This document shows, in pieces, positions 9,337 to 24,100 of a stretch of 26,932 nucleotides of DNA. Position numbers and translations under genes: made by a program. Position 1 is the stretch's first letter. Every line of letters starts with the position of its first letter. The notes under the pieces were generated by a model. The model made no database searches and was not told where the DNA came from. It saw only the letters and a list, made by a program, of their open reading frames with translations. Source of the stretch: a virus; the IMG/VR virus record IMGVR_UViG_3300032893_000246, positions 1 through 26,932 of that record. The stretch is one strand, 5' to 3'.

Positions 9337-10942
9337 GCAGGTTCTCGGGCCGCTTGATGATCACCTGACCAGACGGCAGACCGTACGGCGTGGTCCAGGT
9401 GTTGGTCATGTAGTTGAGATCGTCCATTGCACCGCGCAGATGGGCGATCTCGCCTGAATCCTTGCTCATGCGCTCGGTCGCGGCCTGGATGCGGTTGTTC
9501 AGTTCGCGGGCACGTGCGGTCAACTTGATGTAGTTGTGATCCCACTCGCACATGCCGTACACCGGCATCGGGCGCAGCAGATCGGATTCAGGAGGCACGT
9601 AGACGCCGATACCACGCTCAAGAGCGTTCAGGATGAAGTGCTGGCAGCCGGCGCGCTGATAACCGTATTCTTCGGTGTTATGCGATGCGAGACCTTCTGC
9701 AATGAAGGTTGCCGTGGATGTTTTCAGTCCAACGACAGGCTGTTCGCCGAGGAACTCGATACGCTCGACAGCGACCGTGCTCTGCTTCTGCATGATGCCG
9801 AGGAACTCCGGAGAGAACTTTTCGAGCAGACGACGCGGACGGACCCTGCCGAGGAATTCCATCGTCTTGGAGCGACCGCCGCGGATCGAATATTTGATGC
9901 AGTCGCCATTCATGCCGCCGTCGGTTGAGTCCTGCCCAAGCTCAAACCCCATCCGCTCGCAAGCCGCTAGCACTTCCGCAGACATCGCGTTTTCGCGCTG
10001 CGCGAAACCGATGCGCAGTAGGCCATAATCGTCTTCTCCGCGTTTCTGCGTAATGTGGCCCTCTCCATCGAATGCTGCCGCTAGATAGCCGGCATCCCAT
10101 GAGCGATCCTCCTCCCATGTGTCGCATAGCTTTATGACGCGCGTCGGCCTACCTTCACGGTGATGCGGCGTGACCAAATCCTTTGTCATCTTCCACCGCG
10201 CGTGATTCTCGGCGTGGGTCAGCCACATGTGCTCGTCGGAGCACACCTGCGTCGTTCCATCCTCGAAGTAAATGCGATAACACGGTTTTGTGATCTGGCT
10301 AGCGCGCAGAACTTCGCTGGTACGCCAATACCGTTTCGGCGTGCTATCGCCGTTTGCAACTGTCTCCTCGTCGAATGCTATGAGCTTGTCACCGACCTTC
10401 AGATCGCCGGCACGAACCCATCGCAGATCGGCCGTGAGCACTTTGGTATCTGGATGCGGACAAGCGCTCATATCTACGCCGAAGAAGCCGATCACATCGT
10501 CTGCGGGGTCATGGCCTGGGCTCTTGCGGGCCTTCTCGATCTCAAGAATCGCCAGCGCCGCCATCAGCGACAACGATGAAGTCAGGAAGTAGCTGCTGAA
10601 CTCAGTCTCAACTTCCTCAAGCGGGTAGCGTACGTGGTTCTTGATCTCCGGGATCTCGCCGCCGGTATAGACCGGCCCGCGGAACTCGCGCAAGAACTGG
10701 CAATATTCCGGACTGAACCAAGGCTTGCCAGGCTCCCAGCGATGGACCTCGAACCATGCCGTGAACCGCGGAGACTGCCCGTAGGCGCCCGGCGAGCATC
10801 CCCACATCTCCCAGCGCTCATCCGCGTGCGGAGAGGCCGGGTATGCGTGCACCTTGCCCTGCGTGAACTTCGTGAACGACTCATCCTGCCACGGTGCGAG
10901 TCCGATTGAACTCGGGGCAGATCCCACTAGGGCTATGCGCAT
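9317..10942 (-). CDS. Conserved phage protein interrupted by an intein
   Basis: A 541-residue precursor: N-extein 1-160, intein 161-422, C-extein 423-541, so the spliced host protein is about 279 residues. The extein begins MRIALVGSAPSS, a Rossmann-like beta strand and Gly/Ser loop, then has WGCSPGAYG, AWFEVHRWEP and, rejoined across the intein, GFFGVDMSA-TEEYGYQRAGC and VPPESDLLRP. I recall this as a conserved but functionally unassigned protein near terminase genes in podoviruses; a nucleotide- or sugar-binding role is only suggested by the fold-like N-terminus. It starts at ATG 10942, overlapping the HNH gene by 10 nt, and runs into TerL. Confidence 0.85.
   Translation of the reverse strand: MRIALVGSAPSSIGLAPWQDESFTKFTQGKVHAYPASPHADERWEMWGCSPGAYGQSPRFTAWFEVHRWEPGKPWFSPEYCQFLREFRGPVYTGGEIPEIKNHVRYPLEEVETEFSSYFLTSSLSLMAALAILEIEKARKSPGHDPADDVIGFFGVDMSACPHPDTKVLTADLRWVRAGDLKVGDKLIAFDEETVANGDSTPKRYWRTSEVLRASQITKPCYRIYFEDGTTQVCSDEHMWLTHAENHARWKMTKDLVTPHHREGRPTRVIKLCDTWEEDRSWDAGYLAAAFDGEGHITQKRGEDDYGLLRIGFAQRENAMSAEVLAACERMGFELGQDSTDGGMNGDCIKYSIRGGRSKTMEFLGRVRPRRLLEKFSPEFLGIMQKQSTVAVERIEFLGEQPVVGLKTSTATFIAEGLASHNTEEYGYQRAGCQHFILNALERGIGVYVPPESDLLRPMPVYGMCEWDHNYIKLTARARELNNRIQAATERMSKDSGEIAHLRGAMDDLNYMTNTWTTPYGLPSGQVIIKRPENLRVDRIG
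9677..10462 (-). mobile_element. Intein with LAGLIDADG endonuclease domain (residues 161-422)
   Basis: The element starts at Cys161 (CPHPDTKVLTADLRW, with a following GDLKVGDKLIAFDE, block A), has a block-B-like GTTQVCSDEHMWLTH near 229-243, and ends VVGLKTSTATFIAEGLASHN at 403-422 followed by Thr423: the C-terminal His-Asn and +1 Thr needed for splicing. One LAGLIDADG-like motif (AGYLAAAFDGEG, about 284-295) is plain; a second is not evident, so endonuclease activity may be weak or lost. It interrupts the conserved GVDMSA/TEEYG segment of the extein. All splicing residues are present, so I expect it to be active. Confidence 0.9.
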
Positions 10943-11403
10943 GATACAGCCCTCGCCAACATATATGCTTCCTTGGCCATTTCGATGGTTTTGAACGTTC
11001 CAATATGTTTATGCCCTATTCGCGCACGATACCCGCACTTATTAGATGCCTCGCTAACCCCCAATACACCTAATTTATTATTGCGCTGGCAGCGGTGCCT
11101 ATTGCTGTTATTAACAGAATGATCTACGTCTCTAAGATTGTTAATCCTGTTGTTAGTAGCGTTACCGTCTATGTGGTCTATACATTTATCCGGCCATTTT
11201 CCATAAACATACAGCCACGCAAGACGATGAGCCCTATGTAAGCGCCCACAAATTTTTATCTGAACTCTTCCGCGAGTCTCTGTTCCAGCAATAGTTCCAA
11301 CCGGAATCCTTCTGTTTGGGCTTACGCGCCAACGAAAAATGCCGGACTCCCTATCGTACTCAAGAAATGTTCGGACAATTTCTGCATTCAAAGCGATCTT
11401 CAT
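10933..11403 (-). CDS. HNH homing endonuclease with AP2-like DNA-binding domain
   Basis: A 156-residue protein starting at ATG 11403 behind GAGGAGC. The middle holds the HNH_3-type core: AHRLAWLYVYGKWPDKCIDH followed by IDGNATNNRINNLRDV, with the catalytic His and Asn. The C-terminal region (LGVLGVSEASNKCGYRARI, then HIGTFKTIEMAKEAY) looks like an AP2-type DNA-binding fold. It is a paralogue in design of the HNH gene at 17969. It stands alone, next to the intein-bearing gene, and is A+T-richer than its neighbours. Free-standing HNH genes of this kind are mobile. Confidence 0.9.
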   Translation of the reverse strand: MKIALNAEIVRTFLEYDRESGIFRWRVSPNRRIPVGTIAGTETRGRVQIKICGRLHRAHRLAWLYVYGKWPDKCIDHIDGNATNNRINNLRDVDHSVNNSNRHRCQRNNKLGVLGVSEASNKCGYRARIGHKHIGTFKTIEMAKEAYMLARAVSCA

Positions 11404-11428: not shown

Positions 11429-11896
11429 TCAGGTGGTGGTGGTGTAGGTGTGGCCGGACGCGGTTGAGCCGTTACCGGTCACGGCCCACAGTGCGGTAGT
11501 CATCGGCGTCAACTGGATCGGCGCACCCAGCGACGACAACAGAACGACCGTGAACGATGAGCCAGCCGAGGTCTGGTAGTTCTCTCCATTGGCGGTCTTC
11601 ACGTAGGCAGCGGCCGTGCCATTGGTCATAACGGTCAGTGGATTGGCACCGGGGATCGGCGGGTCGACAGTGAAAACCTGGCTGGAACCGGCACTTGAGG
11701 TCGGCAAGATGTGGTTGCCGAACGGAAGCAGGTTAGTTGCCGTGGTGTCTGCGGTCGTGCAGTCCATGCGCTCGCCCTTGTACGTGCCGGCGAGGAAGTC
11801 GAACTGCCCGCGAGTTCCTCCACTGATGGCAGTCGTCACGCGCTGGAGGCCGATCTGCCGGCCGTGAATGGAAATCAAGTATTTGTCGGTAAACAT
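11429..11896 (-). CDS. Putative virion protein
   Basis: A 155-residue protein starting at ATG 11896 behind AGAGGTGA. It is rich in Thr, Ser, Gly and Ala with alternating hydrophobic positions, as expected for a beta-structured virion protein, and ends in a Thr-rich tail (SGHTYTTTT). No catalytic motif. It follows the SGNH-hydrolase tail protein and precedes the HNH gene, so it is probably part of the tail or head surface. Identity is not recognised. Confidence 0.65.
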   Translation of the reverse strand: MFTDKYLISIHGRQIGLQRVTTAISGGTRGQFDFLAGTYKGERMDCTTADTTATNLLPFGNHILPTSSAGSSQVFTVDPPIPGANPLTVMTNGTAAAYVKTANGENYQTSAGSSFTVVLLSSLGAPIQLTPMTTALWAVTGNGSTASGHTYTTTT

Positions 11897-11944: not shown

Positions 11945-13456
11945 TTACTGAACAATCTTCATTTCTGCTCTATGAACAAGAATAGTGCACGATGATCCGG
12001 CGGTCCCAAAAATCCTGATCATTGGGGCCAAGTGCACCGTATTTGCTGGCACAACCCCTACTGGGGTTCTTATTGTGACGATCTTATTGATAGGGAATGT
12101 CGAATCCCATAGATTAGTGAATGCCGACATATAAGACCCATACACATACGAGTCAGGAGCGGTGTATAGAGTGTTTCCAACGTACCCGGTTGGGCGCAAC
12201 GTCCCTGAATAACCAGAGTCTTGGAACTGTATTGATGTCCTGATTCCGAATTGGCCGCTAATCGCCGTCACTGCAACATCTACTTCGAAAACGAGCTTTG
12301 TACCTGCATTAACGTTGGGGCAGCACAACCATGTGACGGTTCCATCAACAACCGTTTGCCCGACGGTTGTTGGCCACGTCGGCTCACCGGAGCCAGTAGA
12401 CCCGCCGACGCTAAGAGACTTGTACAGGTATCCATTGTTTCCAGTCGACGGATTTACAAGCTCTCCTAGACCTTTTGCTGTAGTCCCCGCCCAATTTCTG
12501 CTGATATAAACATCAGATCCAGAGATAGCAGCTAGAACTTCCACAGAATCTCCGTTCGCGGTGAATGAGCAGGCCACCTGAAGTGCCTGCCCATCCGATT
12601 GATCAAGCCTTGTTTGTCCGCCTGTGCAAACAGCCGATCCGGTGCCAGTAGTAGTTGCGCCCCACGCATGAGGACCAGTCCCTGAAGCAGACCCAGCTAC
12701 TGCCCACTTGTTTGTGCCGCTGGCATTTGCTCCATAGGCAAGCGGATTGGATGACATCACCAATGGTGATCCGTTTGAATACGACCCAGTTTTGACTGGA
12801 GGGGAAGACGTCAGCGATGACAGACAGTTATAAATCTCACGCCCCAGGTAAAGCGCGCCAGTGTAGTTAGGATGAATGTTGTCAGCAGTAAAACCGGTTC
12901 TTGGAACAGACGTCGCGTATGAAACAAAATAGCGATACAAATCGCAAACGATCAAATTTGGATACGTTTTGCCTGCAATGCGAATCAAGTCGTTAGCGTA
13001 TTCCAATGATTGAATTTGATTACCGCTAATGTCTCCTCTGGGCATGAGGGTTGACGCGATGACCTTTATCCCTGAATTCCATAGCGGACCCCACAAATAT
13101 GAAACCAATTTCGCGAGGATTGTGGCCCCACTATCTGGAGACCCGGCTGCAGCGTTGTTTGTTCCTGCTAGCACAAAACAGTATTGGGAGCCAGATGAAA
13201 CCGCTCCAGAAAGAAAACTTGATGCTATTTGTTCAATGGTGTAGCCGGTTTGAGCGCCAACGTAGTTGATGTTGAACGGGGAGCCCATCAACATATTGGC
13301 CATCGTAAAATAGCCGTCGGCACCAAAGCCAAGAGCATTGGCTATGTTGAAATTTCTGAGGGTGATTGAATCGCCTATCAGCGCTATATTATTGGCCGCC
13401 GCAGTTACTGTTAATGCGGTTTGCGTTACAAAAGGCGTGCCAGTGGCGCGCAACAT
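11945..13456 (-). CDS. SGNH/GDSL-hydrolase tail fibre or tailspike protein
   Basis: A 503-residue protein. The N-terminal 220 residues hold an SGNH esterase domain: nucleophile Ser30 in IALIGDSIT, Asn100 in VLAGTNN (block III), and Asp192/His195 in the ADNIHPN motif (block V). The C-terminal half is Gly/Thr/Ser-rich, beta-like, with segments TWPTTVGQTVVDGTVTWLCC resembling virion repeat domains. Such domains on tails remove acyl groups from surface polysaccharides during adsorption. Its ATG shares a base with the stop of the preceding gene (TGATG). The gene is clearly A+T-richer than the packaging genes, which suggests exchange as a host-range module. Substrate unknown. Confidence 0.8.
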   Translation of the reverse strand: MLRATGTPFVTQTALTVTAAANNIALIGDSITLRNFNIANALGFGADGYFTMANMLMGSPFNINYVGAQTGYTIEQIASSFLSGAVSSGSQYCFVLAGTNNAAAGSPDSGATILAKLVSYLWGPLWNSGIKVIASTLMPRGDISGNQIQSLEYANDLIRIAGKTYPNLIVCDLYRYFVSYATSVPRTGFTADNIHPNYTGALYLGREIYNCLSSLTSSPPVKTGSYSNGSPLVMSSNPLAYGANASGTNKWAVAGSASGTGPHAWGATTTGTGSAVCTGGQTRLDQSDGQALQVACSFTANGDSVEVLAAISGSDVYISRNWAGTTAKGLGELVNPSTGNNGYLYKSLSVGGSTGSGEPTWPTTVGQTVVDGTVTWLCCPNVNAGTKLVFEVDVAVTAISGQFGIRTSIQFQDSGYSGTLRPTGYVGNTLYTAPDSYVYGSYMSAFTNLWDSTFPINKIVTIRTPVGVVPANTVHLAPMIRIFGTAGSSCTILVHRAEMKIVQ

Positions 13457-13785
13457 CAGAGCCCCGATCCAGCGGTGACGTAGAACGTGTTGCCGGCCGC
13501 CGACCCGATCACCGCAAACACCGCCGCGGCGCTATCCGTGAACGACTCTGCCGAGTTGGGACCGATCGGGATGCTCGTTGTGGTCCCAGCCGTCGGGCTG
13601 GAGCCTGCGGCGCCGATCTCGATGAAGGTGATGTTGGACCCACTGTTGTACACCCGGTACTGCTGCAGACCGCCTGAATAGCTCGTGCTGCCCGCCTGGA
13701 GCGTCTGCGAGGTCGTAGTGACCGCCACACTGTTTGTGAGGTTGTTCCCCTGCGCAAGGAATGCTCGAAAGTCTTGTTCGCTCAT
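13456..13785 (-). CDS. Small virion-associated protein
   Basis: A 109-residue protein whose ATG overlaps the previous stop (ATGA). It begins with a helical MSEQDFRAFLAQGNNLTNSV, then Ser/Thr/Gly-rich beta-like sequence (GGLQQYRVYNSGSNITFIEI). The composition and its place directly before the SGNH tail gene suggest a small structural or tail-attachment protein. The family is not recognised. Confidence 0.65.
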   Translation of the reverse strand: MSEQDFRAFLAQGNNLTNSVAVTTTSQTLQAGSTSYSGGLQQYRVYNSGSNITFIEIGAAGSSPTAGTTTSIPIGPNSAESFTDSAAAVFAVIGSAAGNTFYVTAGSGL

Positions 13786-14858: not shown

Positions 14859-15053
14859 CTAAGCCGTTCTGCTTCTGTACCTGCAGATATTTCTGATTGA
14901 TGTACGCGGCGCGTGGAACAGCTTTGCCAGCCGCTTGTAGCCGAGTCCCATTTCCTCGTGCAATGCCCTGATCTTGTCGACCTCGGCATCGGTCAGACGG
15001 GCCTGATGGTGGGCCTCGCCTTTCCTGCCGTATGGCCACTCAGCTGACGACAC
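14859..15053 (-). CDS. Small helix-turn-helix protein
   Basis: A 64-residue protein from GTG 15053, overlapping the end of the NeuB gene by 14 nt. The core RLTDAEVDKIRALHEEMGLG followed by YKRLAKLFHAPRTSIRNI is a clear HTH of the type found in recombinase-like and homing-endonuclease-associated DNA-binding domains. It could be a stand-alone regulator of the gap that follows it, or a remnant of an HNH-type element whose nuclease part is lost. The ribosome binding site is weak. Confidence 0.6.
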   Translation of the reverse strand: MSSAEWPYGRKGEAHHQARLTDAEVDKIRALHEEMGLGYKRLAKLFHAPRTSIRNICRYRSRTA

Positions 15054-15831
15054 GGTGCTTTGCCATGGCCGCCTCTTCGGCAGTCTGGTGCTTGATGCCG
15101 CTGCCGCGGTATTGCTCGGCGAATCGGACTAGCCTGACGTATTCGGCGAGGTCTGGCACTGCCACTGCGTAGTCAGGATTGGCCTTGTCGGTGTCCGGGT
15201 GCCTGAAGTGCACTTCGATCATCTGCGCGCCGGCTGCTACTGCCAGTGCGCCGGTCAGGTTGTGCGCGGTGTGGTCGGATAGGCCGATTAAATACCCCCT
15301 ACCGTCGATCGCCCTAAGACTCCACGAAAATAGCAACGCAAGATCTGGCGGACGGCATGGATAAGCCGATACGCAATGCAATACAGAATGACAATTGCGC
15401 AGGTTTCGCACCGCAACCTTAACGCCGTGAATATCCATCATCCCAGTAGACAGGATCACCGGGCGGTCGCCGTGCGCGGCCAAGAACTCGCTATCGCCGG
15501 CTTCGAAGCTAGACACCTTGAACCGCTTCACGAATGGCGCCACAACTTCGATATCTTCAGGCAGATACGTTGTGCACATGAACTCGACGCCCATAGTTTC
15601 GCAATGACGAGCGAGTTCGGGGAGCCATGTTGCCGGCATCTGGTAGCGCCGGTAGATCTCGCGGTAGTGGTCACCGACCTTTCTCCGGCCTGCCAGTCGA
15701 TCCGCATCGCTCCAGAATTGGAACTTCACGACATCCGCGCCAGCGTCAGCGGCCTGGCTGATCATCTCGATAGCATTGCCGAGGCTGCCGTCATGGCAGC
15801 TCGCGGCTTCGGCGATGACTTCACAGTGCAT
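15040..15831 (-). CDS. Nonulosonic acid synthase (NeuB/PseI/LegI type), no SAF domain
   Basis: A 263-residue protein with the NeuB TIM-barrel motifs in order: IAEAASCHDG (6-15), GADVVKFQFW (31-40), CTTYLPEDIEVV (86-97), FKVSSFEAGDSEFL (104-117), PVILSTGM (124-131), LHCVSAYP (151-158), GLSDHT (183-188) and IEVHF (205-209). The family condenses a hexosamine derivative with phosphoenolpyruvate into a nine-carbon sugar acid. Typical enzymes are near 340 residues; this one stops after the barrel and lacks the C-terminal SAF (antifreeze-like) domain that caps the active site of the partner subunit. Start ATG 15831 overlaps the acetyltransferase gene by 11 nt. Sialic, pseudaminic or legionaminic specificity cannot be told by eye. 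Confidence 0.9.
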   Translation of the reverse strand: MHCEVIAEAASCHDGSLGNAIEMISQAADAGADVVKFQFWSDADRLAGRRKVGDHYREIYRRYQMPATWLPELARHCETMGVEFMCTTYLPEDIEVVAPFVKRFKVSSFEAGDSEFLAAHGDRPVILSTGMMDIHGVKVAVRNLRNCHSVLHCVSAYPCRPPDLALLFSWSLRAIDGRGYLIGLSDHTAHNLTGALAVAAGAQMIEVHFRHPDTDKANPDYAVAVPDLAEYVRLVRFAEQYRGSGIKHQTAEEAAMAKHRVVS

Positions 15832-16222
15832 AGGTCACCTGAATAATCTTTCCGCCCAGCTTCTCGAATAGATGCTGCGATGCGGTGTTAGCCGGGTTGA
15901 CGTTGGCCAGAAGCGGCCCTGGATGACGTTTGCGCAGCTCGGCGATGGCCGCCTGTGCGTATCCGTGGGCCTGGAATTCCTTGATCACGAAGATCCCGAC
16001 TTCCCGGTTCTTGGTGAGGTAGATGGCGCCTACCATATCGCCGTCTTCGACCACATACCATGCCTCGTATGGCCTTGAGCGGACGAACGTAACGTGCTCC
16101 TCGTACGCCGGCATGCGCTTGTGCGAAATGCTCTGCTCTGGCGTCCGCTCGCTGAGCAACTGGTACAGGAAAAACTCTTTTCCGCGAGCTCCGTTAGCGC
16201 TGTAGACATCGATCAGCTTCAT
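15821..16222 (-). CDS. GNAT N-acetyltransferase, nonulosonate-cluster (PseH-like)
   Basis: A 133-residue protein with a compact GNAT fold: a segment HVTFVRSRPYEAWYVVEDGD typical of sugar-N-acetyltransferases of flagellin and surface-glycan loci, strand MVGAIYLT, EVGIFVIKEFQAHGYAQAAI carrying the acetyl-CoA loop (QAHGYA in place of the canonical Q/RxxGxG/A), and NPANTASQHLFEKLGG in the last helix. PseH-type enzymes acetylate the C4-amino group of the precursor sugar. It is shorter than usual (about 160-200). ATGA overlap with HisF upstream. Confidence 0.82.
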   Translation of the reverse strand: MKLIDVYSANGARGKEFFLYQLLSERTPEQSISHKRMPAYEEHVTFVRSRPYEAWYVVEDGDMVGAIYLTKNREVGIFVIKEFQAHGYAQAAIAELRKRHPGPLLANVNPANTASQHLFEKLGGKIIQVTYAL

Positions 16223-16950
16223 GTCCGCACCGTGATCCCGTGAGCCCGCAGATATTGGGCGGCGCCGGCTGGCGTGTTCTCCGTGAACTGAAAGACCGCT
16301 CCAGCTGCTACCGCATCAGCTCCGACCTGGATGGCGGCCAGCATGTCCGCGTAGTCCCGACAGCCACCGGAGGCGATCACCGGAACGCTCACGGCGGCGG
16401 CTACGCGCTTGATCAGATCGATGTCATAGCCTTCCATGGTCCCGTCCCGATCGACACTGCTGATGATGATTTCACCGGCTCTCAGGCGATCCATCATCTG
16501 GCAGTACGCCACCGGCTCCAGTCCGGTGTCGACCGTACCTGAGCGCTGATGAATCGTGCCGGCCTTGATGTCCGCAGAAACGATGATGGCCTGCCGGCCG
16601 AATTTGTCGGCCGCGGGCTCCACAAGTTCCAGCGCCTTGGTGCCGATGACTACCTTGTCGGCGCCCATGCGCAGTAACGTCTTGATGTCGTTGAGGTTGC
16701 GGATACCGCCACCGACGGACAACGGTCCCCAGCAGTCTGAGGCGAGCTCGTCGACGAGCTGAAAGTTCGGCCCGCGTCCCTCGGTAGTCGCAGCGACGTC
16801 CAGCAGCAGGATCTCATCGACCTGGCGGGACTGGTGGACCCTGACCGCTTGAGCGGCGACGCCGACAGAGCGCCACGACTGATAACGCTCGCCTTTGACC
16901 ATGGTCCGGCCGCGGCACAGAATCGTAGTGATTATGCGGCGGGCGAGCAT
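16219..16950 (-). CDS. hisF: HisF-like cyclase subunit paired with a sugar amidotransferase
   Basis: A 243-residue (beta/alpha)8 protein with HisF motifs: RRIITTIL near the start, DEILLLDVA, GPLSVGGGIRNLNDI, GADKVVIGTKAL, SSVDRDGTMEGYD and VPVIASGGC. True HisF uses Asp11 and Asp130; here residue 11 is Leu (ITTIL) while the second Asp is kept (about 127, in VSADIKAG). This pattern fits the HisF paralogues found with WbpG-type amidotransferases in surface-sugar loci, not histidine synthesis. I start it at ATG 16950, matching the family's N-terminus; it overlaps the amidotransferase gene by 19 nt. The usual glutaminase partner HisH is not in the window. Confidence 0.88.
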   Translation of the reverse strand: MLARRIITTILCRGRTMVKGERYQSWRSVGVAAQAVRVHQSRQVDEILLLDVAATTEGRGPNFQLVDELASDCWGPLSVGGGIRNLNDIKTLLRMGADKVVIGTKALELVEPAADKFGRQAIIVSADIKAGTIHQRSGTVDTGLEPVAYCQMMDRLRAGEIIISSVDRDGTMEGYDIDLIKRVAAAVSVPVIASGGCRDYADMLAAIQVGADAVAAGAVFQFTENTPAGAAQYLRAHGITVRT

Positions 16951-17972
16951 GACCAGAGCTTGAATTGATTGGCGAGCCACGATTCAGACATTCCGATGTG
17001 TTCTAGGCCCTCCTCGCGCGACACGCCGGCATAGTCGCCGCTGAAATAGCCTTCATGTAGATCCAGCCACGCCATCGCGTATTCACGACTCGTGCGGCCA
17101 GTTCTGACATCTACGCTGATCTGCTGGCATCCACGTCCAAATCCGTACTTTTCATACATCACGTAATCGTGGACGCACGTTTGCCAGTTGTCGAGGTTTT
17201 CGGCTATCCACCAGTTAGCCGGAGAGGGCGGCTCATTGAACGTGTGCATGCCGGCCGCTATCGCGACATCCGCGTTTCTATGCGAGTTCCACGGAATGAA
17301 TTGCCCCAGGAAATACGCTTCCGCGAGCGGTCCGTCCGGCAGCAGGTAGTCGCTCATGTCACGCTCGGTGATTCCGAGCTTCCCGATCATATCGGATGGC
17401 CTCAGCCCCAGGAATCCGCCGAACTCCGAGCGCCAGCGCGCGGTGAGTCGGTCGGCCTCGTCGGTGCCGATAGGCCCGCCGTATTGATTTTGCGGGCTCT
17501 CGCCGTAGAACATGAGGTTGATACCCAGCGCCTTGGCCACGCGGAACGGCGTCGTGAAGATCGAGACATGCTCCGGCCAGCTGATATCACCGACCAACTC
17601 AAGCCCCAGGCGGTTCAGCTTTGCACGCACAGTCCGATTCGGCGTCACTTCGATGGTCCGCGCGTAACGGGCGAGATTGTTGATGTTGGCACGGCCGATC
17701 GGCGTCAGATGGCAGGTAGCGGCGGTCACCACCGTCACATCGGCGCCCAACTCCAACAGGGTCAGGACTTGGTAATGGCTATCCTTACCGCCTGAGCTGG
17801 GGACGATGCAGCGGCCGTCGTGACGGTCCAGGATCTGCAACAAGGCCGCCTTGCGCGTCTCCCAATCGATCTGCGGGCGCTTGGCGTAGCTGACGCAGGC
17901 CGAGCAGACGCCGTCCACGAAGGCGGTATCGGGTCTGGAATTTGGCATAACGCACTTCGAACACCGGATCAC
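16932..17972 (-). CDS. N-acetyl sugar amidotransferase (WbpG/PseA type)
   Basis: A 346-residue PP-loop ATPase. The ATP-binding loop PSSGGKDSHYQ is at 58-68, and an N-terminal metal-binding-like set CSKC (4-7) and CSAC (23-26) matches the family start (CxxCVMPNSRPD). Family members use ammonia delivered by HisH/HisF to convert an acetamido group of a nucleotide sugar or nonulosonate to an acetamidino group, as in pseudaminic acid derivatives and Pseudomonas O-antigen. Start is GTG 17972 with a GTGA overlap to the HNH gene. Length is normal (family about 370). Confidence 0.9.
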   Translation of the reverse strand: MIRCSKCVMPNSRPDTAFVDGVCSACVSYAKRPQIDWETRKAALLQILDRHDGRCIVPSSGGKDSHYQVLTLLELGADVTVVTAATCHLTPIGRANINNLARYARTIEVTPNRTVRAKLNRLGLELVGDISWPEHVSIFTTPFRVAKALGINLMFYGESPQNQYGGPIGTDEADRLTARWRSEFGGFLGLRPSDMIGKLGITERDMSDYLLPDGPLAEAYFLGQFIPWNSHRNADVAIAAGMHTFNEPPSPANWWIAENLDNWQTCVHDYVMYEKYGFGRGCQQISVDVRTGRTSREYAMAWLDLHEGYFSGDYAGVSREEGLEHIGMSESWLANQFKLWSCSPAA

Positions 17973-18457
17973 AGCGTGGCCCCTTCATGCAACTGACGTT
18001 TGGCGGCGACATACGCAGCGTGCGCTTTATCCGCAGTGTCGTGATACCCGAGGTGCACTGACTTTCCAGAAATTTGTATAGCCGCCTTGAAGCGAGTCTT
18101 GCCGCGCGCCGGCGGCGACACGCCAAGGACTCCTATGCGACTACGCGAGGTGGCCGCCCTGACGTTCTGGGCGTTGATCGCAGGATTCGCTAGACGAAGG
18201 TTGCTCCACTTGTTGTCGGACTTGTTGCCGTTCTTGTGATCGATCATTGAGGCCCATTCCCCTGTCATGTAGAGCCACGCTAATCGGTGCGCAAAGTATG
18301 ATTTGTCGAACAGTGATATTCGGACATACCCGCGAGAGTTGACGCTTCCAGCGATCGTTCCATGCTTTATGCGTCTACGGTTTACCGCCCACTTAAATAT
18401 TCCGGTTAGCGGATCGTAGCTAAGGAATTCCTTGATTTGTTCTTGTGTTAGCGTCAC
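17969..18457 (-). CDS. HNH homing endonuclease with AP2-like domain, inside the sugar operon
   Basis: A 162-residue protein from GTG 18457. HNH_3 core: AHRLAWLYMTGEWASMIDHK followed by NGNKSDNKWSNLRLAN; the C-terminal SRIGVLGVSPPARGKTRFKA and HLGYHDTADKAHAAY form the AP2-like DNA-binding part. It has the same architecture as the gene at 10933. It is stitched into the operon by GTGA overlaps on both sides, so it does not stop translation coupling between neighbours, an unusually neat position for a mobile gene. Confidence 0.9.
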   Translation of the reverse strand: MTLTQEQIKEFLSYDPLTGIFKWAVNRRRIKHGTIAGSVNSRGYVRISLFDKSYFAHRLAWLYMTGEWASMIDHKNGNKSDNKWSNLRLANPAINAQNVRAATSRSRIGVLGVSPPARGKTRFKAAIQISGKSVHLGYHDTADKAHAAYVAAKRQLHEGATL

Positions 18458-18627
18458 GGCTTCGTCTCCTGCAACTCGTCCTCGAATAGATACGCTGACT
18501 TCGTCTCGCCGTTGACGAAGTACCGAACGTCATAGCGAGTCCCGCAGGCGTCGATATGAATGCCCATGACACGGCCCCATGTTTCGATCTCCGCGACATA
18601 AACTCTCTGACCGAAAGAAAACTTCAC
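18454..18627 (-). CDS. Small SH3/KOW-like hypothetical protein
   Basis: A 57-residue protein from GTG 18627, which overlaps the methylase stop (GTGA); its own TGA overlaps the GTG of the HNH gene. The sequence MKFSFGQRVYVAEIETWGRV followed by THE-like strands and YDVRYFVNGETKSAYLFEDE suggests a small five-stranded barrel (KOW/Tudor-like), a pattern common in small phage proteins. It has no evident sugar-enzyme motif. Function unknown. Confidence 0.7.
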   Translation of the reverse strand: MKFSFGQRVYVAEIETWGRVMGIHIDACGTRYDVRYFVNGETKSAYLFEDELQETKP

Positions 18628-19211
18628 CGTGTACGCTCCTTGGAAAGCAATGCCCAGTTCAGATTATCCTGACCCGTCATTCGCTTCCATGAAAAGCCAT
18701 AGTCCACGACCGTCAGATCCGGAAACCGGTCCAGCATCTCGCCGGCAAAATCCCGCTTCCAGAGCAGGCCATTCCGCCCGCGATACTCGACCTCGACCGG
18801 CGTCGGGCTGAAATATTCGGCGATCAGGATGTAGCGCTTCGAAGCCCGATAGAGCACTTCGTAGGCCGCCTGCAGTTGCTCTTGCGGGATGTGAATGAGT
18901 AGACCTTTTGTGAACGCCAGATCACATTGCGGATGTTCCACATGGAACATCGATCCGCGGATGACGTTGCCGACGTTGATCTGCTGGGCTGCGAACTCGT
19001 TCAACTCGACGCCCCATAGCTCCGCGCTCCGCAGCAAGCGATGGATAGCTTCCAAGTTCTCTCCACGTCCGGCTCCGAACTCGATGATGGAATCAATCAC
19101 GCCGGCCTTGTGCAGAACTTGCCTGAAAAACGCATGATTGGCATCCACTCGCCCCACATTGCGCATGTGGTACTCGTCGCCTGCATCGCCCTTCCAATAT
19201 TCATCGTTCAT
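18624..19211 (-). CDS. Pseudaminic acid biosynthesis-associated methylase (TIGR03587-like)
   Basis: A 195-residue SAM-dependent methyltransferase. I start it at ATG 19211, behind GGGAG, because the family begins with (E/D)xWxGxxGDEYxxRN, seen here as MNDEYWKGDAGDEYHMRN. SAM-binding loop IIEFGAGRGENLEAI at 42-56; then TKGLLIHIPQEQL, RYILIAEYFSPTPVEVEYRG and LLWKRDFAGEMLDRFP, all hallmarks of this family. Known members occur in flagellin-glycan or surface-glycan loci that make pseudaminic or related acids, and are thought to methylate the sugar. Its presence is the strongest pointer to the pseudaminic/legionaminic side. It overlaps the CMP-sugar synthetase by 11 nt. Confidence 0.92.
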   Translation of the reverse strand: MNDEYWKGDAGDEYHMRNVGRVDANHAFFRQVLHKAGVIDSIIEFGAGRGENLEAIHRLLRSAELWGVELNEFAAQQINVGNVIRGSMFHVEHPQCDLAFTKGLLIHIPQEQLQAAYEVLYRASKRYILIAEYFSPTPVEVEYRGRNGLLWKRDFAGEMLDRFPDLTVVDYGFSWKRMTGQDNLNWALLSKERTR

Positions 19212-19776
19212 GGAGCTCCCGGTAGACTCGTTCCGCGTCATCCCAATCGCTCTGCACATTGATGTCGATGGCGCGCGGCGCGCGGATCGCGTACAGAGTC
19301 GTGTTCTGGTGGTACAGCTCTCGGCCTTCGGCAAACAGCCAGTAGTTGCCCCAGTACAGCCAGCCGATGTCGCGTAGCGGATCGGTGCCGACCGCTACCA
19401 CGTAGCTCATCCCGTCGAGATAGCTGTAGGAGGCCCGCAGATCGTCAGCAGTGAGCAGCGGGGTTGCCGGGTACACACAGCACACCTCGTCGCGCTCGTA
19501 GAGCCGTAGGCTACGTACGGTGTGCTGCATGACCTGCTGAGTGCCAATGTGGTCCTGCGCCAGATGCGGCGGCCGGTGGAGAGGCTGCGCGCCGTAGGCC
19601 AATGCGATTTCTGCGATCTCGGCGTCGTCGGTCGTGACGTATATCGTCTGAAAAAGGCCGCTTTCCTTGCATGCTGTGATCGTTCGGCCGATGACTGGGA
19701 TGCCCAAGAAGGGCTTCACATTCTTGCGTGGAACGCGACGACTGCCTGAGCGAGCCGGGATTACTGCAACCCTCAT
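19201..19776 (-). CDS. CMP-nonulosonate cytidylyltransferase (NeuA/PseF type)
   Basis: A 191-residue protein starting MRVAVIPARSGSRRVPRKNV followed by KPFLGIPVI, the CTP-binding signature of acylneuraminate cytidylyltransferases. Further family segments are VTTDDAEIAEIALAYGA and VCCVYPATPLLTADDL; the C-terminal IDINVQSDWDDAERVY is the usual metal-site/C-terminal motif. It would activate the sugar acid as the CMP derivative for a glycosyltransferase. Length is below the usual 225-235. ATGA overlap with the aminotransferase gene. Confidence 0.93.
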   Translation of the reverse strand: MRVAVIPARSGSRRVPRKNVKPFLGIPVIGRTITACKESGLFQTIYVTTDDAEIAEIALAYGAQPLHRPPHLAQDHIGTQQVMQHTVRSLRLYERDEVCCVYPATPLLTADDLRASYSYLDGMSYVVAVGTDPLRDIGWLYWGNYWLFAEGRELYHQNTTLYAIRAPRAIDINVQSDWDDAERVYRELHER

Positions 19777-20378
19777 TGAAAGGCCTTCATCGTCGACAGA
19801 TCCGGATAGTTTGAATTCGGCAGGTCATGGTTATGAAGCGGCAGGTTGCTCAGCTTCCACAGCAGGCGCGCGGCGACGTCGGGAGACAGATAGCAGTGGT
19901 ATCCGACTTCGCGGATGTCGTCGTCACGCGGGTCCACTCCTTCGGTGCGCCCATCGAAGCGCATGCGACGAAACCACGCGTCCGCCTCGTCATCATCGTG
20001 AAGGATCGCTCCGCCCTGGGTGTCGCCGCAAATTTTCGAACTGTGAAATGAGATGCAATGGTACTGTCCAGCGCGGTACATATCAGACGTGAAGCGGCGC
20101 GCGTAGTCATAAACTGGACTCGGCCTCAACTGGTATCCGCCTGACCACTTCTCATCGTAGAACCTCACCTTAAGGCCAGCATTGATGATCGATGCAGGCA
20201 CTCCTACATAAGAGTGCCGCGGCATCCACAATTGCTTACGGCGATGCGATTTTGCGATCCATTTGCACGCCAGCAGCAAGGCCATCGTGCAAGATGATGT
20301 CGTCACCGCGTACTTTGCGCCAGTGTAGTCCGCGACGGCTTCCTCAAAACGGCGGACGACATCAAACGGGCTAGACAT
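19773..20378 (-). CDS. Short DegT/DnrJ/EryC1-type PLP aminotransferase
   Basis: A 201-residue protein, start ATG 20378 (8-nt overlap with the dehydratase gene) fits the family N-terminus. PLP features: SSCTMALLLA (28-37) for phosphate binding, VYDYARRF with Asp91 for the pyridine N, and ISFHSSKICGDTQGGAI with Schiff-base Lys115. A GYHCYLSPDVAARLLWKL segment matches the GYNxRLxxxxAAxxxxQL block that precedes the small domain. The usual 180-residue C-terminal domain is missing. PseC/LegC-type enzymes aminate the 4-keto sugar made by the dehydratase, so the place in the operon fits. Whether a half-length enzyme works is open. Confidence 0.85.
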   Translation of the reverse strand: MSSPFDVVRRFEEAVADYTGAKYAVTTSSCTMALLLACKWIAKSHRRKQLWMPRHSYVGVPASIINAGLKVRFYDEKWSGGYQLRPSPVYDYARRFTSDMYRAGQYHCISFHSSKICGDTQGGAILHDDDEADAWFRRMRFDGRTEGVDPRDDDIREVGYHCYLSPDVAARLLWKLSNLPLHNHDLPNSNYPDLSTMKAFQ

Positions 20379-21207
20379 TGGCGAGCGCCTCGCGCAGCTC
20401 CGCAACCGTCATCCTGCGCGCGTCCTTGCTGCAATTGCCTTCGCACATGCTCTCGTGTTTCTTCTCGAAATCTGGCAGCCCCGTTAGCGTCATCTTCACG
20501 CCCATGGCTTCAGCCAGATCCGCAAGCCGGTAGGCTGGCAACTCCGGAATATTCAGCTCGCCGCCCTTCATCGCCTCAAGCGTCCGCACGACGAGACCGA
20601 CCGCCTGATCGATCTCCATCCAAAACCGGGTACAGTCCGGATCAGTGACCGGAACCGCCTTTTTGCCGACGGCGATCATCGCACGCCACTTCGGGATTAC
20701 GCTGCCCTCACTGCCGGCGATGTTGCCGTAGCGCGTACAGGCGAACATCGGGCCGTGTCCATCGTTCGCCGACAACATCAGCGATTCGGCCAGGGCCTTG
20801 CTATAGCCATACGGACTACAAGGCTGGAACGCTTTGTCCGAAGAGAGCCCGACGACTCGTGTCACGCCGGCATCCCTAGATGCTTCAATGACATTGATCG
20901 TTCCTTCGACGTTCGTGCGAACCATTTCACTAGGGTTGTAAGCCCCAACTTCAATCCGCTTTAGCGCCGCGGCATGTACCACGGCCTCAACACCAGCCAT
21001 TGCCCTGCGCAGGCGGTCACGGTCGCGCACATCGCCGATGAACCAACGGATACGCGGATCATCGTTCAGCTTCTGCCGCATCGCGGCCTGAACGTGTTCG
21101 CCGCGCGAATAGACACAGATGCGATCGTCCGGACCGGCCGCTTTGAGCCAGTACCCGACGAAGGCCCGCCCGAATGTTCCCGTGCCACCTGTTACTAAGC
21201 AGCTCAT
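20371..21207 (-). CDS. UDP-sugar 4,6-dehydratase (PseB/FlaA1/CapD type, SDR)
   Basis: A 278-residue extended short-chain dehydrogenase. NAD(P)-binding GGTGTFG at 7-13; catalytic pattern LSSDKA ... YGYSK with Asp124, Lys125, Tyr133 (Lys137), the same spacing as Asp-Lys-Tyr in FlaA1/PseB; family segment HAAALKRIEVGAYNPSEMVR followed by TNVEGTINV. It would convert UDP-GlcNAc (or a similar sugar) to the 4-keto-6-deoxy intermediate, the first step of pseudaminic and some legionaminic routes. Typical length is about 330, so the C-terminus is somewhat shortened. Inverting versus retaining type cannot be told by eye. ATGA overlap with the gene before it. Confidence 0.9.
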   Translation of the reverse strand: MSCLVTGGTGTFGRAFVGYWLKAAGPDDRICVYSRGEHVQAAMRQKLNDDPRIRWFIGDVRDRDRLRRAMAGVEAVVHAAALKRIEVGAYNPSEMVRTNVEGTINVIEASRDAGVTRVVGLSSDKAFQPCSPYGYSKALAESLMLSANDGHGPMFACTRYGNIAGSEGSVIPKWRAMIAVGKKAVPVTDPDCTRFWMEIDQAVGLVVRTLEAMKGGELNIPELPAYRLADLAEAMGVKMTLTGLPDFEKKHESMCEGNCSKDARRMTVAELREALANV

Positions 21208-21545
21208 ACAAATTCCGACATCATCATGTCGACGAGTGCCGTCGCCTGCACTTTGCGGTCTTGCTTGGTTTCCCGCGCGAACGAACCGAGCATGAGTTCA
21301 ACGCGCTTGCTGAGCCGCAGACGTAGTTGTTCGGTAATCTGTGATCGCTTCTGCGTCGTCGGCGTGTCACCGCTAACTGCTTTGTAACAGGCCCTTGCGA
21401 ATGCCTCCGCGAACTGCGCGCCGGTCGACGGGTCGAGTGCACACCACTTAACCGGCTTCTCGAAGTGCATGATCACCATTCCATCCTTGTCGGATATCTG
21501 GACGGTCCTTGTGCCTTCGTAGTCATGCAGGATCTGTGCGCTCAC
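21204..21545 (-). CDS. Conserved phage protein of unknown function
   Basis: A 113-residue protein from GTG 21545 preceded by an AGAG-type site. It has an N-terminal beta-like part (GMVIMHFEKPVKWCALDPST) and a helical basic part (QRSQITEQ-like, LRLRLSKRVELMLGSFARET) with a C-terminal short amphipathic helix. No domain is recognised. It precedes the dehydratase by an ATGA overlap and overlaps the previous gene by 23 nt, so it belongs to the same leftward unit as Cro. Confidence 0.65.
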   Translation of the reverse strand: MSAQILHDYEGTRTVQISDKDGMVIMHFEKPVKWCALDPSTGAQFAEAFARACYKAVSGDTPTTQKRSQITEQLRLRLSKRVELMLGSFARETKQDRKVQATALVDMMMSEFV

Positions 21546-21720
21546 TTGTTTCTCTTTTTAATGATCCGTACAACCAATCCCACATGTGGGTGTATGAATG
21601 TGCACTCATCTCGCCGGTTTTTCTTGAAAACCAGATTTGATACGTAACTCCTGAATCAGAAATGCATATCACTTCATAGCCGTCCACGCAACTTTTAGAA
21701 TGGACGCTAACAAAGTTCAC
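21523..21720 (-). CDS. Small hypothetical protein after Cro
   Basis: A 65-residue protein from GTG 21720, whose GTGA overlaps the Cro stop. It is beta-like and aromatic (DGYEVICISDSGVTYQIWFS, HMWDWLYGSL). No motif. Position directly after Cro in the leftward transcript suggests an early-leftward product; the function cannot be given. Confidence 0.6.
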   Translation of the reverse strand: MNFVSVHSKSCVDGYEVICISDSGVTYQIWFSRKTGEMSAHSYTHMWDWLYGSLKRETSERTDPA

Positions 21721-21896
21721 TTCTTGAGCCTCTCCGGGATCTTGATATTGAGCCTACAGGCAGCGCCGAGCACGCGATCAGAGATACGCAGCGGCAACTC
21801 ATCTGGCCACTTGCTGATAGCCTGCTGGGATACTTCTAGCGCGCGGCTGGCTTTGGCCACGCTTCCGAACAGTTGGACGGCTTCCTTTTTGTGCAT
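21717..21896 (-). CDS. cro: Cro-like transcriptional repressor
   Basis: A 59-residue protein, MHKKEAVQLF then GSVAKASRALEVSQQAISKW (11-30), a complete helix-turn-helix, followed by PDELPLRISDRVLGAACRLN, the hallmark of short phage Cro proteins in which the last part makes the dimer strand. ATG 21896 is the first in frame. It is the first leftward gene, diverging from the rightward promoter at 21963; two CAAC-N4-GTTG operators lie between. By analogy it binds these to balance the two directions; a CI partner is not in the window. Confidence 0.9.
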   Translation of the reverse strand: MHKKEAVQLFGSVAKASRALEVSQQAISKWPDELPLRISDRVLGAACRLNIKIPERLKK

Positions 21897-21925
21897 GGCC
21901 TAGCTTAACCGAGCCGAAAGGCACT

Positions 21926-21941
21926 AGCAACAGGCGTTGCT
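21926..21941. promoter_or_regulatory. Operator-like inverted repeat O1 (AGCAAC-N4-GTTGCT)
   Basis: Perfect 6-bp arms with a 4-nt centre. The core CAAC-N4-GTTG is the same as in the second site 26 bp to the right. Lies 30-45 bp upstream of the Cro start, suitable for autorepression of the leftward promoter. Confidence 0.65.
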
Positions 21942-21949
21942 CACTTCAT

Positions 21950-21969
21950 TTAACAACCATGGTTGACAA
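21950..21969. promoter_or_regulatory. Operator-like inverted repeat O2 overlapping the rightward -35
   Basis: CAACCATGGTTG (21954-21965) is a perfect 12-bp palindrome, extending to 16 of 20 symmetric positions over 21950-21969. It covers the TTGACA -35 box of the rightward promoter, so a bound repressor would block it. Shares CAAC-N4-GTTG with O1; centres are 26 bp apart. Confidence 0.7.
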
Positions 21970-21991
21970 TCGCCTGGGCCTGCTGTATCGT
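21963..21991 (+). promoter_or_regulatory. Rightward early promoter
   Basis: TTGACA at 21963-21968, a 17-bp spacer and TATCGT at 21986-21991. The -35 is perfect and the -10 matches 4 of 6. It lies 45 bp before the first rightward gene. O2 overlaps the -35. Sigma-70 type, by consensus only. Confidence 0.7.
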
Positions 21992-22035
21992 TAGATCCGT
22001 CGCTGCACTCCGCAGCCTGTACCTGAGAGGGAGCT

Positions 22036-22269
22036 ATGAGCAATCTGAAAAAAGGCCAGCACGTTGCAATCATCAATTGCACAGTTGGCGGGACTTTCTT
22101 CGTTGAAGGGTTTGCCACAATTGTTGGGGAACCGAAGCCGATCGACGAACAGCAGCGCGTCCGGTTTGATACTGGATATCGTCAAGTCGTTGAGCGTTTT
22201 GTTGACATCGAAGCGCAAGCTGATCCGCATGAGTATGTCAGTCTGCTAAACAGTCGGAGCAAGTCATGA
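22036..22269 (+). CDS. First rightward early protein, unknown function
   Basis: A 77-residue protein starting at ATG 22036 behind GAGAGGGAG. N-terminal KKGQHVAIINCTVGGTFFVE looks like a small beta-barrel, with further strands (EGFATIVGEP, RVRFDTGY). No motif is assigned. It is the first gene after the operator-controlled rightward promoter and is followed by four more small genes in coupled order. In many temperate phages this place holds regulatory or anti-host proteins; nothing here proves that. Confidence 0.7.
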   Translation: MSNLKKGQHVAIINCTVGGTFFVEGFATIVGEPKPIDEQQRVRFDTGYRQVVERFVDIEAQADPHEYVSLLNSRSKS

Positions 22270-22448
22270 ACACCAAACGCACGCACCAGCCCGCAATCTA
22301 CTGGAAAGCCCGGCAATTGGCCTCTGACGCGATCCGGGAGCGCCGGAATACCAAACCACGCACTGACCGGCACGCGGCCCTGGCGCTCATTGCAGAGGCT
22401 GAGGCGCGGTTGGAAGCGCAGACCATCGTGTTTCCTGTCTTCCGCTGA
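22266..22448 (+). CDS. Small basic hypothetical protein
   Basis: A 60-residue protein whose ATG overlaps the previous stop (ATGA). It is Arg/Ala-rich and probably all helical (KARQLASDAIRERRNTK, ALALIAEAEARLEAQ). No motif is recognised. Overlap and direction place it in the early rightward operon. Confidence 0.6.
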   Translation: MNTKRTHQPAIYWKARQLASDAIRERRNTKPRTDRHAALALIAEAEARLEAQTIVFPVFR

Positions 22449-22456
22449 GGTCGCCA

Positions 22457-22611
22457 TGAACCGCAATCGCCCACCCGCCCTAGTGTTCCTGCTCGCCCAG
22501 GCACGTCTTACTATCGAAGCGGAGCACCTGACCGGCATTCGGATGCCGATCTTCGCCCACTTCGAGCTCCTGCAGATCCTCGACTGTGCGCGCCGGCTGA
22601 GGGCTGGATGA
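22457..22611 (+). CDS. Small hypothetical protein
   Basis: A 51-residue protein. I start at ATG 22457, behind GAGG; a longer frame reading back to 22390 would lie on the previous gene. The sequence is helical, with a hydrophobic N-terminus (PPALVFLLAQARLTIEAEH) and a C-terminal helix HFELLQILDCARRLRAG. It could be membrane-peripheral. Stop overlaps the next ATG. Confidence 0.55.
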
Positions 22612-22748
22612 TGCGCCCTCTGTTGCTGGCATTGCTGTGCATGTTCTGCTCCATCGTTGGCCTGGGGCTTGGCGATGGCTGGCTGGTATTGATCGGTCTT
22701 GTGGGGTCTGCACTGAACCTTGCTGCTTTCATGGGGGTGACACAATGA
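22608..22748 (+). CDS. Small membrane protein (two hydrophobic segments)
   Basis: A 46-residue protein, start ATGATG at 22608/22611 overlapping the previous TGA. Nearly all hydrophobic: residues 4-21 (LLLALLCMFCSIVGLGLG) and 25-43 (WLVLIGLVGSALNLAAFMG) make two likely transmembrane helices separated by a short Gly/Asp turn. No charged tail beyond the start. Its stop overlaps the next gene's ATG. Small two-helix proteins in early operons may alter the host membrane, but no holin or exclusion function can be claimed. Confidence 0.6.
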   Translation: MMRPLLLALLCMFCSIVGLGLGDGWLVLIGLVGSALNLAAFMGVTQ

Positions 22749-23272: not shown

Positions 23273-24100
23273 TCAAACTCCACACATTCCTTCGCACTCG
23301 TTCTGGAATCCGAGAGGATCGAATAGTGTTTGCTGCCCCATGTCCTCGGCCGAGCGCAGATCGACCTCTTCCAGTGGCTTGCAGGATCGGTGCAGGTAGA
23401 TGTCTGCATCCATGCCACGCGCGGCCCGTACTGGCGCATCGCCCCTCAACGCGCGGTCGACTTCGACCGCGCTGTTCCACGACTCTGGATCGTTAATTTT
23501 CATATCCCGCCACATTGCATCATCGTGATACGGGCAAAACGTACAGGCTGACTTCGCCGGCTTGGGGTAGCCTCTAGCCAGCATCCAGTCCAGGCAATGC
23601 TGCCGAGTCATCCGAAGCTCGATCAGTGGCCAGCGATTCTGAATGTATGGCTTGCCGGAATCCTTCATGCGCCCTATTTCATCAAGGCTGATACCGATAA
23701 GCTGCTCGGCCAAAACCACATCGCGCGGGCCGCGTTGTCCAGGCGCGAGTCCACATAGCTCGCGCGCCTTGCGCTGTAGCGGCTCGATCTTGTATTCCCG
23801 CGTGCACTGCCGGCGGGTCATTCCAACGCTTCCGGAAAACGCGGTGAAAGCTGGGATCGAGGCGACTCGCCCCGGTTCCAGGGAAAGCAGATCGTCTCGC
23901 AGGTTTCCTGCACTGACGCGGTGAACTGGAAAGGTCAACTGCGTTTCCAGCCAGTCGAGCCATTCATAAACCTTCCGCGGCTCCGATCCGGTGTCAGCGA
24001 AGATCGCTGCATCGACTTGATAACCAAGTGCGCCCGTTGAGGCCATGAGCGCCAGCGTGCTGCTCTGGACGCCGGCACCAAGGGATAGAACCCTGATCAT
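23273..24100 (-). CDS. PP-loop / PAPS-reductase-like ATP pyrophosphatase
   Basis: A 275-residue protein with a PP-loop-like SLGAGVQSSTLALMA at 6-20, Cys99 in RRQCTREYKIEP, GISLDEIGRM (137-145), and SACTFCPYHDDAMWRDM with Cys186 and Cys189, the pattern of phage PAPS-reductase/FAD-synthetase-like proteins. The C-terminus has a further Cys pair (CEGMCGV). Such enzymes adenylate a substrate and then replace the AMP, often with sulfur; in phages the substrate is not established and sulfation, nucleic-acid thiolation or anti-defence roles are possible. Cys residues could hold an Fe-S cluster. ATGA overlap with the RuvC-like gene, so it is in the replication operon. Confidence 0.8.
   Translation of the reverse strand: MIRVLSLGAGVQSSTLALMASTGALGYQVDAAIFADTGSEPRKVYEWLDWLETQLTFPVHRVSAGNLRDDLLSLEPGRVASIPAFTAFSGSVGMTRRQCTREYKIEPLQRKARELCGLAPGQRGPRDVVLAEQLIGISLDEIGRMKDSGKPYIQNRWPLIELRMTRQHCLDWMLARGYPKPAKSACTFCPYHDDAMWRDMKINDPESWNSAVEVDRALRGDAPVRAARGMDADIYLHRSCKPLEEVDLRSAEDMGQQTLFDPLGFQNECEGMCGV

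Follow-up and report, generated by a model that had tools for sequence, protein, structure and literature searches.

The IMG/VR virus record IMGVR_UViG_3300032893_000246, a sequence of 26,932 bases that lies outside any bacterial assembly and was analysed at its full length (hereafter the window), carries eight genes for the synthesis of a nonulosonic acid (NulO) in one leftward operon at positions 15040–21207, each of them supported by profile matches. An earlier note on this DNA had named these eight overlapping genes from the sequence alone and had proposed a phage-borne NulO operon with possible acetamidino and methyl tailoring. Profile matches to every family confirm this gene content, including the WbuX, WbuZ and TIGR03587 types on which the tailoring would depend. 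Adjacent frames share 4–19 bases throughout; only the junctions at an HNH endonuclease gene, which was missing from the earlier list, depart from this. The cassette consists of the following genes:

20371–21207, minus strand: PseB-type UDP-GlcNAc (uridine diphosphate N-acetylglucosamine) 5-inverting 4,6-dehydratase, 278 amino acids (aa), first cassette gene (TIGR03589, PF02719)
19773–20378, minus strand: half-size DegT/PseC-type pyridoxal phosphate (PLP) aminotransferase (‘mini-AT’), 201 aa (PF01041, E 4.5e-18)
19201–19776, minus strand: PseF-type CMP (cytidine monophosphate)-nonulosonate synthetase, 191 aa (TIGR03584, PF02348)
18624–19211, minus strand: pseudaminic acid (Pse)-associated methylase (TIGR03587)
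17969–18457, minus strand: gene of an HNH endonuclease, an insertion within the operon (PF13392, E 2.3e-13; phrog_99, E 1.5e-59)
16932–17972, minus strand: WbuX/WbpG/PseA-type N-acetyl-sugar amidotransferase (TIGR03573, E 7.9e-55)
16219–16950, minus strand: HisF-like WbuZ/AglZ-type glycosyl-amidation subunit (TIGR03572)
15821–16222, minus strand: N-acetyltransferase of the GNAT family that may carry out the PseH step, present in most cassettes (PF00583, E 8.5e-9)
15040–15831, minus strand: short NeuB-type nonulosonate synthase, 263 aa (PF03102, E 8.6e-40)

When the products were compared with profiles of the families named in the earlier note, the methylase passed its curated TIGR03587 cut-off (193.5 bits against 112), and the PseB-, PseF- and WbuX-type proteins matched below theirs. 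TIGR03589 is the best model for the dehydratase, which retains SSDKA and YxxxK (281 bits, equivalog cut-off 407.75; PF02719, E 4.9e-68), and the PseF-type protein reaches 160 bits with TIGR03584 (cut-off 206; PF02348, E 6.7e-20). The amidotransferase retains the PP-loop SGGKDS and four cysteines in two CxxC pairs; it scores 187 bits with TIGR03573 against a cut-off of 203, which 13 of 27 related records attain. For the HisF-like protein the TIGR03572 and NF038364 models (221 and 215 bits) both exceed the hisF model (181 bits), and NeuB yields 137 bits with PF03102 and 114 bits with TIGR03586 (cut-off 340). Judged from these matches, the operon product is likely a Pse-type NulO, perhaps in an acetamidino or N-methyl form.

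Several of the enzymes occur in forms that are specific to viruses. The mini-AT has ∼200 aa compared with 360–390 aa for DegT enzymes: its domain extent, taken from the profile of an aminotransferase alignment (A2) and compared with the PDB, covers the PLP domain, and the C-terminal domain is missing. Measured against full-length PseC it scores 48 bits (cut-off 423.5), but the PLP lysine is retained, and Asp91, Arg94 and the Schiff-base Lys115 are invariant in 14 of 14 aligned mini-ATs. Its viral homologues are equally short. They were found on 151 viral contigs and on three contigs among 84,980 cellular species, so that by this count the mini-AT is essentially virus-only. One of the three cellular contigs (29.6 kb, from a Sulfuricaulis metagenome-assembled genome; L181/L335) is phage-like itself: besides mini-AT and WbuX it encodes capsid, tail and MptE/Maf-like proteins. 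It looks like phage DNA sorted into the genome bin of a gammaproteobacterium and gives a weak hint at a host. The NeuB of the window lacks the C-terminal SAF domain, as do short copies in several other lineages, whereas homologues mostly have ∼326 aa; it retains the conserved His187 and His208 of the SDH and ExH motifs. A WbuX tree, built from 74 viral and 27 cellular sequences, places the protein of the window within a virus-only clade of 52 members (support 100/100). Smaller viral groups branch elsewhere in the tree, which indicates more than one history for WbuX at least.

The cassette recurs on many viral contigs. Scans with the amidotransferase and with the terminase large subunit (TerL) as queries gave 15 relatives (25–65% identity) and 10 relatives, respectively, and a tblastn search of these loci with all window proteins showed that most of them also contain the eight genes, including loci with another gene order and loci whose portal was only 25–30% identical or not detected at all. 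The 151 viral contigs were confirmed when the search was extended with the aminotransferase alignment, and 80 loci from them were retrieved. Many of these end at a contig edge; each cassette gene was found in 45–68 loci upon clustering, the eight-gene set occurs in at least eight orders, and no additional gene near the cassette is nearly as frequent as the eight. The cassette was also found on contigs with unrelated capsid and portal genes, and in many metagenomes. The set is thus kept while order and neighbours change, and the constant content despite shuffled order points to a functional set. The earlier note had called such a string in a phage unusual, which holds against cultured phages (see below), but not among uncultured phages: a survey of related phage contigs finds it in dozens.

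Candidate transferase and acceptor

The CMP sugar delivered by a NulO pathway requires an enzyme that uses it, and a transferase was therefore sought. A candidate, named g9317, and a possible acceptor, g11429, lie in the following region:

9317–10942, minus strand: candidate NulO transferase g9317, intein-split, extein of 279 aa (predicted Maf/CST sialyltransferase fold)
9677–10462, minus strand: intein of 262 aa, Cys...His-Asn|Thr, with LAGLIDADG-like region (translation, junctions, intein-free homologues)
10933–11403, minus strand: HNH-type endonuclease gene between candidate acceptor and transferase (resembles an HNH frame of a related locus, L008)
11429–11896, minus strand: Ser/Thr-rich (26.5%) all-beta protein, candidate acceptor g11429 (composition; phage-appendage-type fold)

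The intein of g9317 sits directly behind an invariant GVDM, within the motif GVDM-A|xEEY, which is the most conserved of the family. A Maf/CST fold had been suspected from the sequence ahead of the fold search. One homologue without intein (L017, 64% identical in the first part) was modelled with AlphaFold2 (pLDDT 74.7) and then compared with the PDB using VIA-align; the top match was Maf, the glycosyltransferase of flagellin (5mu5; Z 11.3, 2.8 Å, 152 residues). The next matches were MptE-type HPPK and thiamine pyrophosphokinase (Z 9.7–10.2), CstII (Z 9.5) and a Pasteurella sialyltransferase (Z 9.3); mammalian sialyltransferases match as well (Z 5.6–6.8), and many of the highest-ranking hits are sialyltransferases. 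The distance between g9317 and TerL in the main lineage is at most 700 bases in 99 of 105 loci.

A second type of putative transferase belongs to PF01973 (MptE/Maf-like). Such proteins, one to three per record and all above the Pfam cut-off, occur in eight cassette records that lack g9317, and in comparison with bacterial Maf proteins of this type reach hhalign probabilities of 97–99% (E 9e-12 to 7e-16). In the lineages examined, the Maf-like genes mostly follow closely on the gene for the major head protein, with one short gene between. Both types lack the outer N- and C-terminal domains of flagellar Maf: the extein of g9317 has 279 aa and the phage PF01973 proteins ∼250–370 aa, compared with mostly 440–940 aa for bacterial Maf open frames.

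The gene for g11429 directly precedes g9317 (at most 600 bases upstream) in 60 of 66 loci, and nearly all proteins of its family contain 24–32% Ser plus Thr. A model of the window protein, built with 35 homologues (pLDDT 75), consists almost wholly of beta structure and matches TSP4 of CBA120 (Z 8.8), the KP1 baseplate (Z 8.6), T4 gp9 (Z 8.5), the T4 baseplate (5iv5, Z 7.1) and the Pa223 capsid spike (Z 6.6); T4 gp10 is also matched. Flagellar Maf O-glycosylates Ser/Thr residues of flagellin with NulOs (PMC11339370, PMC13317340). The same pairing of a Maf-type enzyme with a Ser/Thr-rich protein is found here, which suggests a virion acceptor, and by this analogy g11429 would be the most likely one, as an appendage or decoration protein. 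On the strength of the modelled fold and its setting, we regard g9317 as a candidate NulO transferase that would use the CMP-NulO to glycosylate a protein on Ser/Thr.

Probable virion glycosylation and its alternatives

Taking these results together we consider it probable that the phage makes a CMP-NulO, Pse-like and perhaps acetamidino- or N-methyl-modified, and O-glycosylates its own virion with it. The known order of the Pse pathway (PMC7591256, PMC13317340) served as template for the step order and the exact product, which we infer by analogy. UDP-GlcNAc would be dehydrated and epimerised by PseB, aminated by the mini-AT and acetylated by the GNAT enzyme, giving a 2,4-diacetamido-2,4,6-trideoxyhexose. 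After removal of UDP (the PseG step), which would come from the host or another enzyme, NeuB would condense the sugar with phosphoenolpyruvate, and PseF would activate the product with cytidine triphosphate to CMP-NulO. WbuX and the HisF-like WbuZ could add an acetamidino group, with ammonia release (the HisH step) supplied by the host or another enzyme, and the TIGR03587 methylase could add a methyl group. Late in infection, the intein-spliced transferase of predicted Maf/CST fold, encoded among the late genes, would finally take the NulO from CMP and attach it to Ser/Thr residues on the virion. The adjacent g11429 product is the likeliest acceptor, and the particle would leave the cell coated with a bacterial-type sialic acid. 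A benefit of this chemistry might lie in shielding, mimicry or adsorption.

Several observations weigh against this interpretation. The earlier note spoke of a full string, and although all eight genes are present, no TIGR03590 match for PseG and no class I glutamine amidotransferase (HisH) was detected in 25 records. Control genomes were positive in both searches, so the two enzymes are missing systematically and their steps must be performed by the host or by a different enzyme. Most cassette enzymes score below the strict equivalog cut-offs, which means that the exact NulO is not fixed. As to the transferase, Foldseek found nothing significant for the g9317 model in the PDB, so that the Maf/CST relation was seen with VIA-align only; the hhalign comparison between g9317 and bacterial Maf likewise lacked significance (P 0.0045 over 37 columns), PF01973 is matched by only 3 of 43 g9317 members (best E 0.035), and the fold class also holds pyrophosphokinases. 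Two 50-kb records, G002 (L033) and G028 (L092), carry g9317 without NeuB, WbuX and mini-AT; these phages may use another activated sugar or a host-made one.

Since the Foldseek search was negative and the sequence link is weak, the context matters, and profile and co-occurrence tests were added. Apart from the two exceptions, all g9317 records of at least 40 kb (19 of 21) have the cassette. Conversely, 37 of 38 cassette records of at least 40 kb have either g9317 or a PF01973 protein (the exception is G056), a figure that covers cassette phages only; all of these counts refer to related contigs and not to independent events. The strongest argument is that the transferase types are swapped while the cassette stays, which argues that both do the same job. 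It is rather likely, in our judgement, that a large group of uncultured tailed phages makes a decorated CMP-nonulosonate with virus-only mini-enzymes and attaches it to virion proteins with a minimal Maf, only the two absent steps being supplied by the host, and that unrelated phage backbones have exchanged this machinery as a whole, with a swap of the transferase type.

An improbable alternative is that the g9317 and PF01973 proteins are not NulO transferases but, for example, pyrophosphokinases or structural proteins, and that another enzyme uses the CMP-NulO. HPPK and thiamine pyrophosphokinase follow closely in the fold comparison, and the two g9317 phages without cassette would fit such a role. 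However, the top match is Maf with many sialyltransferases in the top rows, one of the two transferase types almost always accompanies the cassette, and second g9317-like copies lie near the cassette in some phages. Similarly improbable is a transfer to host flagellin or another host protein, resulting in altered motility or a block of flagellotropic phages: flagellin is a documented substrate of Maf (PMC11339370, PMC13317340), but the phage proteins are without the outer domains of the flagellar enzymes and their genes sit with phage structural genes and a Ser/Thr-rich protein of virion type. A use of the sugar in DNA modification was set aside, as no supporting gene was seen. We give practically no weight to the operon being cargo acquired from a glycan island in a host, or a product of chimeric assembly. 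Bacterial relatives exist for every gene, but the same cassette stands beside phage genes on dozens of contigs from many metagenomes, the WbuX clade is virus-only and the mini-AT virus-specific, and the base composition of the segment is like that of the rest of the window. A host island or chimera, already contradicted by these findings, was rejected; the identical string at the same place on related contigs, beside phage genes, is in line with the earlier note, which had treated the operon as the phage's own.

Of the two uses that the earlier note had proposed, a change of the host surface is disfavoured: that CMP-NulO is built into a surface polysaccharide or lipopolysaccharide, with serotype change or superinfection block as a consequence, appears unlikely to us. 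In its favour, lipooligosaccharide glycans are substrates of GT42 sialyltransferases, which share the fold, and 7 of 24 long records have a tyrosine integrase. Known phage NulO enzymes also work in this manner: the prophage enzymes EpaA/EpaB epimerise Pse in the Acinetobacter capsule (PMC12053666), and NulOs of the capsule are modified by an O-acetyltransferase of phage origin (PMC6586298). However, no flippase, polymerase or other conserved glycosyltransferase is among the recurrent genes near the cassette, the candidate transferase lies within the virion gene block in lineages with differing capsids, and 17 of the 24 long records are without tyrosine integrase, which fragments or other integrase types could in part explain. 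Lysogenic conversion is thus unlikely as a general purpose. Decoration of the virion, the other proposed use, is favoured by the protein of Maf/sialyltransferase fold next to TerL, the Maf-like genes behind the capsid gene and the Ser/Thr-rich neighbour.

Other features of the window

The window is a fragment about half as long as its longer relatives. The surroundings of the cassette are podoviral, with portal (PF12236), TerL (phrog_979), major head protein (phrog_3437) and tail proteins. Features outside the cassette and the transferase region are:

2625–3449, minus strand: major capsid protein, main part (phrog_3437, E 8.9e-44; homologues 65–79% identical)
5794–7470, minus strand: podoviral portal / head-tail connector (PF12236, E 2.1e-58)
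7744–9336, minus strand: terminase large subunit (phrog_979; relatives 54–62%)
21204–21545, minus strand: small protein of no known family, ∼105–113 aa (cluster in 19 cassette loci, often near PseB/aminotransferase)

The cluster of the small protein lies at a median distance of 677 bases from the aminotransferase gene in its 19 loci. The Cro that the earlier note had placed upstream of the operon was not recovered: PHROGs gave no match for the tested open reading frames (ORFs) at 21204–22745. Further upstream of the cassette, at 23273–24100, a PAPS-reductase-like protein (phrog_424) is encoded. A 503-aa protein of SGNH/GDSL type at 11945–13456 (phrog_6102 lipase) contains a head decoration-like stretch (phrog_20658) and is flanked by Ser/Thr-rich proteins at 11429–11896 and 13456–13785; it could be a virion esterase. 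No tRNA and no known family of structured RNA (Rfam-type search) was found in the window.

Four elements of homing type were observed within the 27-kb window, namely the g9317 intein, two HNH genes and a LAGLIDADG ORF. Both HNH proteins of the window match the same HNH ORF of L008. The capsid gene is interrupted at 3449–4415: the start MSDTAFQTQ is encoded at 4415–4389, followed by the LAGLIDADG ORF (3461–4288), and the remainder (RQEFVLGFEQH...) continues from ∼3449, whereas capsid homologues are contiguous without interruption. The insertion resembles an intron that carries a homing endonuclease; an Rfam search of the split capsid gene detected no group I intron.

Comparison with known systems

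We compared the cassette with 50,697 records of cultured phages and did not find it there as a unit. WbuX, the methylase and the PF01973 transferase had no match at all; g9317 had one (a Microcystis phage, 31%), PseF one (a Moritella record), NeuB two distant ones and the mini-AT seven distant ones in jumbo, Flavobacterium and Synechococcus phages. Among the latter, at 29–41%, are Flavobacterium phage immuto (MW353176) and the jumbo phage records LR756511 and LR756502, and the Flavobacterium-phage mini-AT is annotated beside a mannosyltransferase. From these sequences the half-size DegT form would be older or wider than the cassette. The proteins of the cassette families mostly match no PHROG, or only distant or generic ones, and as the unit was not seen in cultured phages it has been missed by standard phage annotation. 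In the open PMC literature, covered with few subscription papers and no preprints, we found no phage NulO pathway or virion NulO coat, only prophage enzymes that modify capsules.

Giant viruses such as PBCV-1 and mimivirus make their own sugar nucleotides and glycosylate their own particles, but these are eukaryotic viruses and the sugars are hexoses; we know of no NulO pathway of the cassette type in them. In phages, O-glycosylation of the virion has been described for mycobacteriophages, where, according to the account of Freeman et al. 2023 given in PMC11652166, a phage enzyme glycosylates a capsid or tail protein. In contrast, the present system comprises a whole sugar pathway and a candidate Maf-type transferase. 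To our knowledge, no phage-made NulO is involved in mycobacteriophage virion glycosylation, and other glycosyltransferases are used. The Acinetobacter prophage enzymes EpaA/EpaB and O-acetyltransferases (PMC12053666, PMC6586298) share with the cassette that phage genes act on NulOs; they modify a host-made capsule NulO, whereas here a near-complete pathway is viral.

The WbpG-HisH2-HisF2 (WbuX/WbuY/WbuZ) system of O-antigen and flagellin sugars has in common with the cassette a WbuX with PP-loop and CxxC motifs and a WbuZ-like HisF, but the phage cassettes are without the glutaminase (HisH/WbuY) in the 25 records searched. Sialic-acid-like protein glycosylation is known from bacterial flagella. 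NulO glycosylation of flagellin in Campylobacter, Aeromonas and Clostridium shares the PseB-, PseC-, PseH-, PseI- and PseF-type steps with the phage cassette, as well as predicted acetamidino and methyl tailoring and a transferase of predicted Maf fold near a presumed Ser/Thr acceptor. Unlike the flagellin system, the cassette is phage-encoded, with a truncated aminotransferase, in the window also a truncated NeuB, and no PseG, its transferase has no outer domains and the acceptor is apparently a virion protein. The component types are thus all known, and it is their viral combination that appears new. If the proposed function is correct, it would represent a new virion chemistry affecting adsorption, host recognition and evasion. 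The cassette also offers minimal natural versions of a DegT aminotransferase, NeuB and Maf, and the phage Maf-like enzymes provide, besides flagella, a second setting for studying how Maf picks its Ser/Thr acceptors.

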